The notes under the pieces were generated by a model that was not told where the DNA came from, made no database searches, and saw only the letters and a program-made list of their open reading frames with translations. From positions 806,001-870,000 of the forward strand of contig NZ_AP025523.1 in NCBI RefSeq assembly GCF_027923555.1: 64,000 nucleotides of DNA, read 5' to 3'. The position numbers and the translations under genes are program-made. Source of the stretch: Vulcanimicrobium alpinum (GTDB taxonomy: Bacteria; Vulcanimicrobiota; Vulcanimicrobiia; Vulcanimicrobiales; Vulcanimicrobiaceae). Position 1 is the stretch's first letter, and every line of letters begins with the position of its first letter. Below, piece after piece: positions 37,487 to 55,199 of this stretch.

Positions 37487-39099
37487 GCCGCGTCACGCGT
37501 TTTGCGGCGGTCGCCGGTGCGTTGGCCGTTTTCGTCGGCGTCGCCGGCGGTCGGCCCGCGTCTGCCGCCGATCCTCGCCCATTGCGGCTCGGAATGACGA
37601 CCGAGCCGCGTTCGCTCTCGCCGCTCTTCTCGCTCGACGACTACGCGAACACCGTCGACCGGCTTGCGTTCGACGTGCTGATCTCGGTCGGCAGCGACGG
37701 CCGGACGCTCGTGCCGCGTCTCGCCGCCGAGGTGCCGTCGCTGCGCAACGGCGGGATCAGCCGCGACGGCCGCACGCTGACCTATCACCTGCGCCGTAAC
37801 GTGAAGTGGCACGACGGCGTGCCGTTCACGAGCAAGGACGTCGCGTTCTCGTATCACGCGATCATGAACCCGGCGAACAACGTCCCGAACCGTCACGGGT
37901 ACGATCAGATCGCGTCGGTGGCGACGCCTGATCCGTACACGGTCGTCTTTCGGTTGAAGGAGCCGTACGCGCCGGCGATCACGACGCTCTTCGGCGACGA
38001 CACGTGCGGCCCGATTCTGCCCGAGCATCTGCTCGGGCGTTACCCGAACCTCAACGAAGTCGACTTCAACCAGCACCCGGTCGGGACGGGTCCGTTCAAG
38101 GTCGTCCGCTGGGACCGCGGCTCGTCGGTCGAGCTCGACGCCAACGACGACTATTACCTGGGCAAGCCGAAGCTCCGCCGCATCAGCGTGCGCTTCGTCC
38201 CCGACGAGAACACGCTCGTCACGCAGATGCGCACGCACGAACTCGACGTCTTCGCGGAGATGTCAGTCAACGCGTACGGTCAGATGCGCGGCATCCCCGG
38301 GACGCGTGCGGTGCTCAGCAACGTCCACGGCGCGGCGAACCTGCTGATGAACACGACGCACGACGCGCTGCGCGATCCGCGCGTGCGGCGCGCGATCGCG
38401 GCGGCGATCGATAAAGATGCGATCGTGCGCAACTTCGCGTACGGCGCGGGTACCGTCGCCGGCGCCGACCTCCCGTCGTTCATGTGGGCCTACGACCCCA
38501 ACGCGCGCGCCCAGCCCCACGATCCGGCGCGCGCCCGCGCGTTTTTGCGCGACGCAGGCTACGTGCCGGGACCCGGCGGGATCGTGCAAAAGGCGGGCCG
38601 CCCGCTCAGCCTCACCTTCGCGTATTCGCAGAACAACATCGCGGCGCGGCTGATCGCGGTGCAGATCCAATCGTACCTGCGCGAGGTGGGGATCGACGCG
38701 CAGCTCAAGGGCTTCACGACCCAGATGATGTTCAACGCCTACGCGGCCGGCGGGATCTACCAGGCCGGCAAGTTCGATCTGGCCTGGTACACGATGACGC
38801 TCGGCGTCGATCCCGACAGTTCGGGCCGCTTCACGTGCGGCGCAATCCCGCCCAACGGGCAGAACTACTCGCGCTACTGCAATCGCGAGATGGACGCGGC
38901 GCAGACCGCGGGCCTGCGCACGTTCGACCTCGCCGCCCGCAAGCGCGCCTACGCGCGCAGCCAGGAACTTCTGGTGCACGACGTCCCGGCGGTCTTCGTG
39001 TTCTGGCCCAAGAACATCGACGCGGCCGACGCCGGGCTGCGCGGTTTCGCGCCGAATCCGTCGATCGCCACCTGGAACGCCCACGAATGGTCGTGGTGA
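37477..39099 (+). CDS. ABC transporter oligopeptide-type substrate-binding protein
   Basis: The 540-residue protein belongs to the SBP_bac_5 (DppA/OppA) family: LGMTTEPRSLSPLF, then VKWHDGVPFTSKDVAFSYHA and GTGPFKVVRWDRGSSVELDA. It binds peptides, nickel or other solutes in the periplasm. The signal peptide (TRFAAVAGALAVFVGVAGG) is preceded by MSKRR whose first residues come from the dispersed repeat, with TTG as start. No permease or ATPase genes follow, so it is an orphan binding protein in this window. Confidence 0.88.
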   Translation: MSKRRVTRFAAVAGALAVFVGVAGGRPASAADPRPLRLGMTTEPRSLSPLFSLDDYANTVDRLAFDVLISVGSDGRTLVPRLAAEVPSLRNGGISRDGRTLTYHLRRNVKWHDGVPFTSKDVAFSYHAIMNPANNVPNRHGYDQIASVATPDPYTVVFRLKEPYAPAITTLFGDDTCGPILPEHLLGRYPNLNEVDFNQHPVGTGPFKVVRWDRGSSVELDANDDYYLGKPKLRRISVRFVPDENTLVTQMRTHELDVFAEMSVNAYGQMRGIPGTRAVLSNVHGAANLLMNTTHDALRDPRVRRAIAAAIDKDAIVRNFAYGAGTVAGADLPSFMWAYDPNARAQPHDPARARAFLRDAGYVPGPGGIVQKAGRPLSLTFAYSQNNIAARLIAVQIQSYLREVGIDAQLKGFTTQMMFNAYAAGGIYQAGKFDLAWYTMTLGVDPDSSGRFTCGAIPPNGQNYSRYCNREMDAAQTAGLRTFDLAARKRAYARSQELLVHDVPAVFVFWPKNIDAADAGLRGFAPNPSIATWNAHEWSW

Positions 39100-50606: not shown

Positions 50607-51371
50607 ATGGCCGCATCCGCCGATCTCGCCGCCAACCACACCGTCCGGCTCGATACGTTCGCACCCAAGCGCATCTTGATAGTCGTCGCCAATGCCGGGA
50701 TGCACCCGACGCTGCAGTACCCCGTCGGGTTCTGGGCCGCAGAACTTGCCCACCCGTGGTACGAGTTCACGGAAGCCGGGTTCGACGTTACTGTCGCCAG
50801 TCCGAAGGGCGGGAAGGTGGAGGTCGACGGCTTCAGCGATCCGCGCGACGCGTCGAAGTGGTCGATCGGCGACATCCTCTCGCTGGGCTTTCTCACCTCG
50901 CCCATCTCGGCGCCGCTGCTGGAACGCACGCCGGCGCTCGGCACGCTCGACTTAACCCGGTATGATGCCCTTGCGATCGCGGGGGGACAGTCGCCGATGT
51001 TCAGCTTTCGCGACGACGCGGCGCTGCATCACGCGATCCGAACGTTCTACGAATCGAATCGCGTCGTCGCGGCGTACTGCCACGGAACCGCGGCGCTGGT
51101 CGACTGCACGCTCAGCGACGGCTCGTATCTCGTCACCGGCAAGACGGTCACCGGTTTTGCGAACGTTGAGGAAGACTATTCCGACGCGTACGTCGGCGCG
51201 ACGGTGATGCCGTGGCGCATCGAAGACGCGTTACGGGCGCGCGGCGCGAACTACGTGCAGGGCGGACTCTTCAAACAGTTCGTGGTGCGCGACGGCCGCC
51301 TGATCACCGGCCAGCAGCAATACTCCGGCCGGAACGTCGCGCGCGCGATCGTCGCCGCGCTCGGAGCCTGA
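50607..51371 (+). CDS. DJ-1/PfpI superfamily protein (Hsp31-like)
   Basis: The 254-residue protein has the class I amidotransferase-like fold with nucleophile cysteine in VVAAYCHGTAALVDC and IAGGQSPMFSF; WYEFTEAGFDVTVASPKGGK is typical of the Hsp31/glyoxalase III branch. It may act on methylglyoxal-type damage or as a chaperone. An epoxide hydrolase follows after 7 bp, which supports a detoxification unit under the XRE regulator upstream. Confidence 0.85.
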   Translation: MAASADLAANHTVRLDTFAPKRILIVVANAGMHPTLQYPVGFWAAELAHPWYEFTEAGFDVTVASPKGGKVEVDGFSDPRDASKWSIGDILSLGFLTSPISAPLLERTPALGTLDLTRYDALAIAGGQSPMFSFRDDAALHHAIRTFYESNRVVAAYCHGTAALVDCTLSDGSYLVTGKTVTGFANVEEDYSDAYVGATVMPWRIEDALRARGANYVQGGLFKQFVVRDGRLITGQQQYSGRNVARAIVAALGA

Positions 51372-52512: not shown

Positions 52513-52524
52513 GCACCGCGTGAC
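52503..52524. repeat. Partial dispersed repeat with small palindrome
   Basis: GTCACGCTGAGC matches the left end of the dispersed repeat; GCGTGAC follows after 3-5 bp and pairs with its start as a 7-bp inverted repeat. It lies between convergent genes, provides the stop of the epoxide hydrolase, and touches the stop of the aromatic fusion gene. Confidence 0.65.
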
Positions 52525-54305
52525 TAGGCCGGGAGCGGGATGCGTTCGAGATCGGCGACGATCGTGCGGAAGTCGCTGAATGTGAGGGCTTGGTCGCCGT
52601 CGCAGCGCGCCTCGGCGGGATTCGGGTGCACTTCGAGGAGCAGACCGTGGGCGCCGACGGCTTTGGCCGCGCGGCACAGCGGGGCGATCCAGCGCCGCAC
52701 GCCGACGGCGTGCGACGGATCGACGATCACCGGCAGGTGCGTGCGCTCGCGCAGCACCGGGACCGCCGAGAGGTCGAGCGTGTTGCGCGTCGCCGTCTCG
52801 AACGTGCGGATCCCGCGCTCGCAGAGGATCACGTTCGGGTTGCCCTCGCTCATGATGTACTCGGCGGCGGCGAGCAGCTCGTCGATCGTTGCCGCCATTC
52901 CCCGCTTGAGCAGCACCGGACGCTCCGTCTTTCCGATCGCTTTGAGCAAGTCGAAGTTCTGCATGTTGCGCGCGCCGATCTGCAGCAGATCGACCGAAGC
53001 CGCCATTCGCTCGACCTGTTCGATGCTCATTACCTCGGAGACGATCGGGAGTCCGGTCGCGCGCGACGCTTCGGCGAGCAGCGCGACGCCTTCCCAGCCC
53101 AGTCCCTGAAACGCGTAGGGCGACGTGCGCGGCTTGAACGCGCCGCCGCGCAGCATCACGCCGCCCGCGGCCGACACGGCTTCGGCGGTCGCGAGGATCT
53201 GCTCGCGCGACTCGACGCTGCACGGGCCGCCGATCACCACGAACGCGCCGTCGCCGATCGCGACGTTCCCGACCATCACGCGCGACCGCACGTCGGGATC
53301 CTGGCGCTGCGCTTTCGGGAACGACACCTTCGCCGGCTTCGGCACGACCGGCGGCGCGTCGTCGACGACCACCGCCGGCTCGCGCCGCACGCGCGGCGGC
53401 GCAGTCGCCGCGTCGTAGGTGCCGATGACGTGCAGTGTCGCGATGACGCTACGCAGCTCTTTGAGCGCGTCGACGAACCGGGGCTCGCGCACGTCGCCGT
53501 CGACGTCGGCGTAGAATGCATACTGATCCGAGGCGCCCAGACGCGACTTCGAATCGAGCTTCGAGACGTTGAGTCCGTGCGTTCCGAAAATCGACAGACA
53601 GCGCCCGAGCGCGCCCGGCGAATCAAGGACCGCGAACACGAGCGAGGTCTTCCGGTTGCTGACGTTCTGCGCCGGTTCAAACTCGGCGGCGAGCCCGCGG
53701 GCGTTCGGGGCGCGGAAGAGGATGAAGCGGGTGAAATTGTCGGGATGGTCGGCGATCGTGGTGGCGAGTTCGATCAGACCGTAGCGTTTCGCGGCGTCGC
53801 TCGACGCGATCGCGCCGCGCGACGGATCGCCGGCGGCGGCGACGTCGCGCGCCGCGATCCCGGTATCGGGGACCGGCACGCGGCGCACCTCGGGGAGCGT
53901 CGCGAGAAATCGCCCGCACTCGGCGAGCACGACCGGGTGCGAATCGATTTCCCGCAAACCCGCGATCGTCGCACCCGGCACGCCGAGCAGCCGATGCTCC
54001 ATGCGCATCGTGATCTCGGCGAGCAGGTCGAGCTCGTATTCGGCCAGGGTGTCGTAGCCCTCGCGGATCGTCCCGGCGATGGCGTTGTCGACCGGGAGCA
54101 GACCGACGTCGGCACGCCCGCTGAAGACCGCCTGCGCCACCGCGCGGTACGACGCGCAGCCCAGCGGGGTGAAGATCACGCCGCGGCGCGCGGCGTACGC
54201 ATCGAGCACCCCATGCGAATACGAGCCCTCGATGCCCTCGAAGGCCGCGGTCATCGTCAGTGTCGGGGTGGTCTGCCCGTCGGGCAGGGTCTGCGCGCTG
54301 GTCAT
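52524..54305 (-). CDS. Prephenate dehydratase-ACT-DAHP synthase fusion
   Basis: The 593-residue protein joins the first step of the shikimate pathway with the last common step to phenylalanine. Residues about 18-205 are prephenate dehydratase ([30 protein letters not shown]). Residues about 215-295 are an ACT domain ([20 protein letters not shown]), the usual phenylalanine sensor; the ESRP motif is changed to SKSR. Residues about 335-590 are a type I-beta DAHP synthase ([31 protein letters not shown]). One protein can thus control both entry and branch flux. The ATG at 54305 follows GGGAGCG. A terminator and an aromatic-rich leader peptide lie just upstream. Confidence 0.93.
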
Positions 54306-54318
54306 CTCGCTCCCTTGT

Positions 54319-54350
54319 AAAAAGAGCCCCTCGCTCGGCGAGGGGCTCTT
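54319..54350 (-). terminator. Attenuator terminator upstream of the aromatic fusion gene
   Basis: On the minus strand AAGAGCCCCTCG (54350-54339) and CGAGGGGCTCTT (54333-54322) form a perfect 12-bp stem with a 5-nt loop, followed by T-rich sequence to 54319. It ends 14 bases before the start codon of the gene it precedes, so it can only act as a conditional terminator. The segment GCAAGAGCC (54352-54344), which overlaps its first arm, can pair with GGCCTTTGC (54389-54381) in the leader with one mismatch, a candidate antiterminator. Confidence 0.9.
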
Positions 54351-54375
54351 GCTGCTGGCAGTCCGTGAAGACCCG

Positions 54376-54453
54376 TTACGGCAAAGGCCTACCGCGCCGG
54401 AGCGCTGCGCACTCGGCATAAAAATAGCGGTAAAACCACGACGTCACGGCCAT
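54376..54453 (-). CDS. Aromatic amino acid leader peptide
   Basis: A 25-codon frame from ATG 54453 to TAA 54376 contains the run TGG TTT TAC CGC TAT TTT TAT at codons 6-12, i.e. WFYRYFY: one Trp, two Phe and three Tyr in seven codons. Immediately after it GCCGAGTGCGC and GCGCTCCGGC (54417-54396) can form a pause hairpin. The terminator follows 25 nt after the stop codon, then the aromatic fusion gene. This is the classical layout of translation-coupled attenuation (as pheL, trpL): ribosome stalling at aromatic codons when charged tRNAs are scarce would favour antitermination. No Shine-Dalgarno is visible; the promoter position suggests an almost leaderless start. Confidence 0.88.
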
Positions 54454-54462
54454 GTCCGTGTG

Positions 54463-54492
54463 ATCTTGCCACGCCCGGGGGCACCGCGTCAA
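54463..54492 (-). promoter_or_regulatory. Putative promoter of the leader peptide transcript
   Basis: TTGACG (54492-54487) and CAAGAT (54468-54463) are 18 bp apart on the minus strand. The -35 is near consensus, the -10 weak. Transcription would begin near 54456, a few bases before the leader ATG. The divergent msrA gene starts at 54540, so both promoters must share this 86-bp gap. Confidence 0.5.
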
Positions 54493-54539: not shown

Positions 54540-55199
54540 ATGGTTGCGCCCATGATCACCCGATTTGCCGCCCTGCTCGCGGCGCTGAGCGTCCTCGCGG
54601 CGCCGGTCGCGGCCGTTGCCGCACCCCCCGTCCACACCGAGAAAGCCGTCCTCGCCGGCGGCTGTTTCTGGGGGATGGAGGCGGTGTTCGAGTCCCTGCG
54701 CGGCGTCACCAGCGTGGTCTCGGGCTTTTCCGGGGGCAACGCGATGACCGCGCACTACGAGATCGTCAGCACCGGGATGACCGGTCATGCCGAATCGGTC
54801 GAGATCACCTACGACCCCGCGCAGATCTCGTACGCGCAACTGCTCGACGTGTACTTCGCCGTCGCGCACGATCCGACGGAGCTCAACCGGCAAGGCCCCG
54901 ACGACGGCCCGCAGTACCGCTCGTCGATCTTCTACACGTCCGACGAACAGCGCCGCGTCGCCGAGCAGACGATCAAGAAGCTCACCGACGAGAAGACGTT
55001 TCGCGCTCCGATCGTCACCAAGGTCGTGAAGTTCACCGCCTTCTATCCGGCGGAGTCGTACCATCAGCACTTCGCCGAACGCAATCCCGACAACGGCTAC
55101 ATCGTCTTCAACGACAAGCCGAAACTCGAAGCGTTGCGCAAGCGCTATCCGCAGCTGCTCAAAGCGAACGCGGTGGCGCTTCGGCTGACGAAGTCGTAG
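54540..55199 (+). CDS. msrA: Exported peptide-methionine (S)-sulfoxide reductase MsrA
   Basis: The 219-residue enzyme repairs oxidised methionine. A signal peptide (ITRFAALLAALSVLAAPVA) precedes the catalytic GGCFWGMEAVFE; GPQYRSSIFYTSDEQ and ESYHQHF are conserved. The ATG at 54540 or 54552 could start it. The last 41 bases overlap the end of the epimerase gene on the other strand. Periplasmic MsrA fits with the secreted redox-related proteins nearby. Confidence 0.93.
   Translation: MVAPMITRFAALLAALSVLAAPVAAVAAPPVHTEKAVLAGGCFWGMEAVFESLRGVTSVVSGFSGGNAMTAHYEIVSTGMTGHAESVEITYDPAQISYAQLLDVYFAVAHDPTELNRQGPDDGPQYRSSIFYTSDEQRRVAEQTIKKLTDEKTFRAPIVTKVVKFTAFYPAESYHQHFAERNPDNGYIVFNDKPKLEALRKRYPQLLKANAVALRLTKS

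Follow-up and report, generated by a model that had tools for sequence, protein, structure and literature searches.

A putative leaderless leader peptide attenuator before the prephenate dehydratase-DAHP synthase gene of Vulcanimicrobium alpinum, and attenuators of the same design in its lineage

The window analysed here (64 kb of the Vulcanimicrobium alpinum genome, with a GC content of 68.9%) contains a short open reading frame crowded with aromatic codons, followed by a hairpin and by the gene of a prephenate dehydratase (PDT)-DAHP synthase fusion. The question raised by this locus is whether the short frame senses aromatic amino acids and controls the fusion gene, as a first-pass annotation had proposed, and whether the arrangement stands alone in the genome. 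Our analysis indicates that the locus is very probably a ribosome-mediated transcription attenuator with a leaderless leader ORF sensing aromatic amino acids, and that it belongs to a set of at least ten such attenuators in this genome.

Layout of the locus

The leader, the terminator and the competing arm were found where the first-pass annotation had placed them, and the sequence confirmed the run WFYRYFY at codons 6-12 (Table 1). The perfect terminator with a T-run that it had described just before the fusion start is indeed free of mismatches over 13 bp, with 13 nt between the T-run and the fusion start codon (54305-54303). The competing pairing, said to overlap the terminator arm, joins GGCCTTTGC (54389-54381) to GCAAGAGCC (54352-54344) with one mismatch, and the identification of the downstream gene as a prephenate dehydratase-DAHP synthase fusion was borne out by Pfam (PDT and DAHP synthase I); this fusion is the sole PF00793 (DAHP_synth_1) match of the genome. 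Note that a simple terminator scan missed the leader terminator, probably because the stem takes in part of the T-run. The promoter scan of the locus did not return a consensus promoter; it was the comparison of relatives that revealed the conserved TTGAC box, and CAAGAT, the -10 box of the window, matches only weakly.

Table 1. Features of the fusion locus (window coordinates) and of the sister attenuators in the same genome (coordinates on G000:C1)
Feature	Position	Strand	Basis or content
-35 box TTGACG, leader promoter	54487..54492	-	sequence; TTGAC conserved 5' of leaders
Extended -10 region TGGCAAGAT	54463..54471	-	family consensus TGGTAnnAT, alignment of 34 attenuators
Leader ORF, 25 codons, putatively leaderless	54376..54453	-	ATG 54453-54451, TAA 54378-54376; 31 further aromatic leaders in relatives
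Sensor codons 6-12 (W6 F7 Y8 R9 Y10 F11 Y12)	54418..54438	-	last aromatic codon 57-77 nt from terminator, 32/32 leaders
Segment 1, TACCGC, inside sensor codons	54427..54432	-	predicted to pair with GCGGTA (54395-54390) when ribosome-free; fold prediction
Hairpin 3' of sensor codons (pause hairpin of the first-pass annotation)	54396..54417	-	fold prediction
Segment 2, antiterminator 5' arm, end of leader ORF, CCGGCGCGGTAGGCCTTTGC	54381..54400	-	folding and arm comparison
Segment 3, terminator 5' arm, also used by antiterminator	54338..54350	-	terminator search and covariation
Segment 4, terminator 3' arm	54322..54334	-	terminator search and covariation
Terminator as a whole	54319..54350	-	stem AAGAGCCCCTCGC/GCGAGGGGCTCTT, 13 bp, zero mismatches, loop CGA
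Terminator T-run	54319..54323	-	sequence
Shine-Dalgarno-like AAGGGAG of fusion gene	54310..54316	-	sequence
PDT-DAHP synthase I fusion, controlled gene	52524..54305	-	Pfam: PDT, DAHP_synth_1, weak sub-cutoff ACT match
msrA, peptide methionine sulfoxide reductase, divergent	54540..55199	+	ORF and Pfam
aroA attenuator	3082547-3082721	+	leader MLSGAYFYRWYPRC...
ilvA attenuator	530566-530742	-	leader MLRCALVIIAGSIIAA...
ilvC attenuator	2956014-2956194	+	leader MLSRLVVLVSVLLAVLI...
ilvE attenuator (L205)	2602621-2602800	-	leader MASRYAFPVFSLTVG...
hom attenuator	2679070-2679243	-	leader MFAHGVITTTMTTTLG...
metY attenuator	2681638-2681805	-	leader MNRRSLAMMMCCCSPRGTV
cysH attenuator	51004-51167	-	leader MISLAVRACASC...
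Sulfite reductase attenuator	3331121-3331290	-	leader MLLCCCLLMACP...
SsuA-type sulfonate transporter attenuator	1786764-1786944	-	leader MPNAASFLAMCMCC...

Conservation, geometry and alternative folds

The fusion protein was searched in 99 family and 149 phylum genomes, and the upstream regions were then compared. An aromatic leader and then a terminator lie ahead of 32 DAHP synthase genes from 16 genera; of these genes, 3 are unfused and 29 are fused to prephenate dehydratase (including L037 and L039, whose contigs end after the PDT part and which were classed as fused by relatedness); L011, L014 and L036, which meet a contig end or a sequence gap, stand outside this count. These leader-bearing DAHP synthases belong to Vulcanimicrobiota (Eremiobacterota), extend down to 58% protein identity and include one genome from another family (L127). 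The leader frame persists through the divergence of the DNA (e.g., MLTNRSLAFAYYYYFRRPPGRLGFVCA, MTRNGFSFAYWYYYFGLTGRRGFAHA, MLATASFYAYYFYWVESPLG and MIAFTSAAFTYSYFSRPEGSAGRRLRA), and the terminator is present with all 32 leaders. The comparison suggested by the first-pass annotation, i.e., a search of orthologues for a W/F/Y frame and compensating hairpin changes, thus gave the outcome expected of an attenuator, while its statement that the peptide reads all three aromatic residues fits WFYRYFY here but weakens across the family, where Trp (23/32) is less constant than Tyr (31/32) and Phe (27/32).

In genus g36, neither the leader frame nor the terminator was found at eight loci (L021, L022, L026, L027, L029, L030, L038 and L042), which is a lineage-specific loss and no refutation of the attenuator. 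In several of the last seven, the fusion starts about 9 nt after a -10-like box (TATTAA or TATAAA), and the mRNA of these loci may itself be leaderless; L021, without a leader, has retained a TTGACA promoter. The other subfamily of DAHP synthases was represented by 18 genes, and upstream of these no aromatic leader was found.

In the 32 aroF-type leaders, the start codon lies 37-42 nt beyond the first base of TTGAC (38 or 39 nt in 24 of them), and with a standard promoter this spacing would place the 5' end of the transcript within a few nt of the start codon, so that the leader ORF is probably leaderless or nearly so, with almost no 5' UTR. At the other end, the distance from the leader stop codon to the terminator varies between 23 and 51 nt, whereas that from the last aromatic codon is kept within 57-77 nt. 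The sensor codons are AU-rich although the lineage is high in GC and its fusion genes prefer TTC and TAC: TTT accounts for 71% of the Phe codons in leaders compared to 17% in 22 fusion genes, and TAT for 46% of the Tyr codons compared to 18%. Such codons perhaps keep the sensor stretch unpaired.

Both alternative structures are supported by comparison or folding. In the terminator, 8 of 12 pairs display changes on both sides, a result equalled in none of 500 shuffles (wider attenuator set). The antiterminator, in which the end of the leader ORF pairs with the terminator 5' arm, rests on comparative evidence, as single-sequence duplexes are mostly weak when compared to shuffles; the duplex-versus-shuffle test was replaced by a permutation of cognate and non-cognate arms, and with one sequence per genus the cognate arms reached a mean of -22.4 kcal/mol versus -19.5 kcal/mol for permuted partners (p=5e-5). 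In folding with the sensor codons covered by a ribosome and before synthesis of the 3' arm, 72% of the terminator-arm bases paired upstream, compared to 37% with shuffled leaders (32/32 above), while a ribosome at the stop codon left 4% of the arm paired upstream and a terminator probability of 0.98 in folding. The 22 non-aroF attenuators that went into model R2 (see below) behaved in the same way (antiterminator pairing 0.75 versus 0.37 shuffled, 22/22), with 57-72 nt from sensor to terminator. Note that in the full equilibrium fold the terminator wins in most sequences, and antitermination would thus need kinetic pre-emption. An inverted repeat resembling the post-sensor hairpin is also visible, by eye only, in the family alignment.

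Attenuators of other pathways

A covariance model of the attenuator 3' half (R1, with an RNAalifold structure of only 4 pairs) was searched over the phylum, and the leaders read at its matches elsewhere displayed the same layout with other sensor codons. In this genome, nine sister loci were identified (gene names from NCBIfam), at which the sensor codons mostly suit the pathway; in relatives, the same architecture stands before ilvB, leuA, trpD and a chorismate mutase/TyrA locus. The tie between attenuator and fusion gene drawn by the first-pass annotation must therefore be loosened, since the fusion does carry the device but unfused aroF, aroA and the chorismate mutase/TyrA locus carry it too. 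An R1 match of the own genome at 322912 (+), a terminator without leader, was set aside, and no attenuator was found upstream of its trpE, whereas Trp leaders (MYLVRWCVNWCSDHPGGW) precede trpD at L293 and L323 of genus g5.

A second model (R2), spanning promoter to terminator with a structure set by hand, recovered the nine loci and the fusion leader at E-values of 5e-20 to 2e-11, which are optimistic since all ten loci are in its training set; the informative part is the gap beneath them, where one site at 7e-7 (1128256+) is followed only by partial terminator-like matches from 6e-5 down. This site (G000:C1 1128256-1128391 (+), L235) combines a TTGAC promoter-like box and a terminator with no clear leader start codon. 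R2 marks 98 of 148 phylum genomes, mostly in the own family and order, and its best match in 12 genomes of other phyla reached 30.5 bits (E 7e-4). A strong R2 match at 38433-38570 (-) of G051:C11 (L183) has promoter and terminator, no clear leader ORF and an isopropylmalate synthase-like gene downstream, and is possibly a degraded attenuator.

The match between sensor and pathway was evaluated on 40 R2 matches outside model building, of which 35 had an assignable gene (some by eye from near-identical starts) and L284, L308, L310, L313 and L319 were left out for want of an assignable gene or leader. Sensor residues agreed with the pathway at a mean z of 2.25, versus 0.05 for permuted labels (maximum 1.26; none of 20,000 permutations as good), with gene-to-pathway labels assigned by us and the peroxiredoxin and permease genes put in the sulfur class after their leaders had been seen. 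Three-class calls were right in 32 of 33 held-out cases, which are not fully independent, as several of the genes are orthologous to one another or to genes used in training. The leaders of this set were partly chosen by a 36-42 nt distance from the -35 box, and this distance is no evidence there. In the own genome alone, 8 of 9 calls were right (p=1e-4), with ilvE as the exception. The ilvE leaders of the genus (L205 and L316) mix Phe/Tyr with Val/Leu/Ile codons, and this aminotransferase may be under the control of both amino acid groups.

These results lead us to favour, by a modest degree, the hypothesis of one modular design (a strong TTGAC promoter, a leaderless ORF with exchangeable sensor codons at about 4-14, a fixed arm of about 64 nt and a terminator with a 3' arm that the ORF end imitates) serving as the lineage's standard control of amino acid and sulfur assimilation, copied or re-evolved for each operon, in which an any-of-three aromatic sensor would guard the entry to the shikimate pathway. 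Among the less usual members, a Cys-rich leader (MFETGRSAMCCCLCRPRTG) before a peroxiredoxin gene (L298) suggests, from its sequence, that Cys supply may control an antioxidant enzyme, and an aromatic leader with YYRYY (L319) precedes a 259 aa ORF with no Pfam match.

Proposed mechanism, rival explanations and known systems

According to the proposed mechanism, RNA polymerase would start at the leader ATG or within a few bases of it, and a ribosome would begin translation at the very 5' end of the RNA. When charged Trp, Phe and Tyr tRNAs are ample, the ribosome would reach the stop codon and mask segment 2, leaving segments 3 and 4 to form the terminator and transcription to stop near 54319. 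When any of these tRNAs is short, the ribosome would stall in codons 6-12; segment 2 would then remain available for pairing with segment 3, and the polymerase would continue into the fusion gene. In untranslated RNA, segment 2 would be held by segment 1, with termination as the default. From this geometry, a stall anywhere in codons 6-12 would free segment 2, and thus running short of any one aromatic amino acid should be enough for the gene to be opened.

Other explanations must be weighed against attenuation. The leader might act mainly via translation or Rho rather than by intrinsic termination, with leader translation controlling access to the fusion gene's Shine-Dalgarno or to a Rho site there; some actinobacterial leader peptides are without terminators (PMC1262725) and the Shine-Dalgarno directly follows the hairpin here, but the strong hairpin and T-rich tail are kept in 32/32 cases with compensating changes, and the conserved competitor pairs with the terminator 5' arm and not with the Shine-Dalgarno, which leaves this explanation improbable. 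Less credible still is that a protein or ligand is sensed here, as by a T-box, a riboswitch or a TRAP-like element, with the aromatic frame being incidental: although T-boxes or riboswitches control amino acid genes in other phyla (PMC2965389), Rfam leader, T-box and riboswitch families gave no match above cutoff, or near the gathering score, at the fusion locus and the nine sister loci (best Leu_leader, 20.7 bits versus a cutoff of 50), the sensor residues track the pathway across different operons, and the frame is kept despite DNA divergence.

A chance or coding artefact can be almost entirely discounted. The open frame of the fusion does extend to an ATG at 54419, and the gene could in principle start upstream with the hairpin inside its coding sequence, or the hairpin could be the ordinary terminator of a neighbour. 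However, leader and hairpin are retained among the relatives, where the gene starts 3' of the terminator, and the terminator does not come from an upstream gene because msrA is divergent. In addition, stretches of eight codons with six aromatics occur only twice in the six frames of the 64-kb window, none with more, and both are overlapping stretches of the leader itself.

The attenuation reading has to be placed among known systems. The trpL/pheL-type layout claimed by the first-pass annotation is supported by the leaders of 16 genera, their terminators and the coevolving antiterminator arms. As in this class, a short leader ORF with codons for pathway end products lies between promoter and gene, a conserved intrinsic terminator separates leader and gene, and comparison and folding point to an antiterminator sharing the terminator 5' arm. 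Both have sensor codons as well as an antiterminator and a terminator that exclude each other, and in both a ribosome at the stop codon blocks the antiterminator, here as seen in folding. Enteric trpL/pheL leaders have ribosome-binding sites and read Trp or Phe alone, whereas the Vulcanimicrobium leader holds codons of three amino acids and appears leaderless; the 5' UTR with a Shine-Dalgarno before the leader has no counterpart at 37-42 nt from the -35 start, given the presumed transcription start. The likeness thus holds for the layout and is limited by the probable leaderless start and by the membership in a larger set of switches.

The closest known system, as far as it is described in later papers, is the Corynebacterium glutamicum aroR leader of aroF (Neshat et al. 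2014, via PMC11802643 and PMC4046766), which contains Phe-Tyr-Phe and according to these accounts answers to Phe and not to Tyr. Both are leader peptide attenuators before a DAHP synthase gene with aromatic codons as sensor; when compared by description and not by sequence, the present case differs by WFYRYFY, another phylum, the PDT-DAHP synthase fusion and a regulon of one architecture. Leaderless leader peptides are known in actinobacteria, e.g., trpL, leuL, ilvL and others of Streptomyces lividans (PMC8079986) and ilvB of C. glutamicum (Morbach 2000, as cited in PMC4046766), and share with ours an ORF without ribosome-binding site and, in several cases, a terminator; they belong to another phylum, and among those listed for S. 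lividans (PMC8079986) none lies upstream of a gene for DAHP synthase, of aroA or of genes for sulfur assimilation. The mycobacterial cys operons have Cys-rich leader ORFs without obvious terminators (PMC1262725), their runs of Cys codons before sulfur genes recalling our cysH, sulfite reductase and ssuA loci, but the Vulcanimicrobium sulfur loci have terminators. In Thermoanaerobacter and Thermus, tyrA-containing operons that also include DAHP synthase have predicted attenuators (PMC1173090), and a 2010 survey placed leader peptide attenuation in Proteobacteria, Actinobacteria and, as its own finding, some Firmicutes (PMC2965389).

The first-pass annotation knew of no such attenuator in this lineage, and the open literature searched under the name Eremiobacterota likewise yielded no paper joining the phylum with leader peptides. 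The mechanism is of a known class, while its occurrence in this lineage and at the scale of a regulon seems undescribed. Knowledge of gene regulation in Vulcanimicrobiota appears scant, and our findings would add a new lineage to leader peptide attenuation, with one genome-wide rule by which reading a 25-codon ORF predicts which operon answers to which amino acid, and with many natural replicates for the coupling of leaderless translation to transcription. V. alpinum WC8-2 is in culture (DSM 115291), which makes these predictions testable if it is the source strain. As a last observation, full-length PDT-DAHP synthase matches with 41-45% identity were found in Ignavibacteriales, Melioribacter, Myxococcales and one further bacterium (L045, L046, L047 and L049), and the fusion thus also occurs outside Vulcanimicrobiota.
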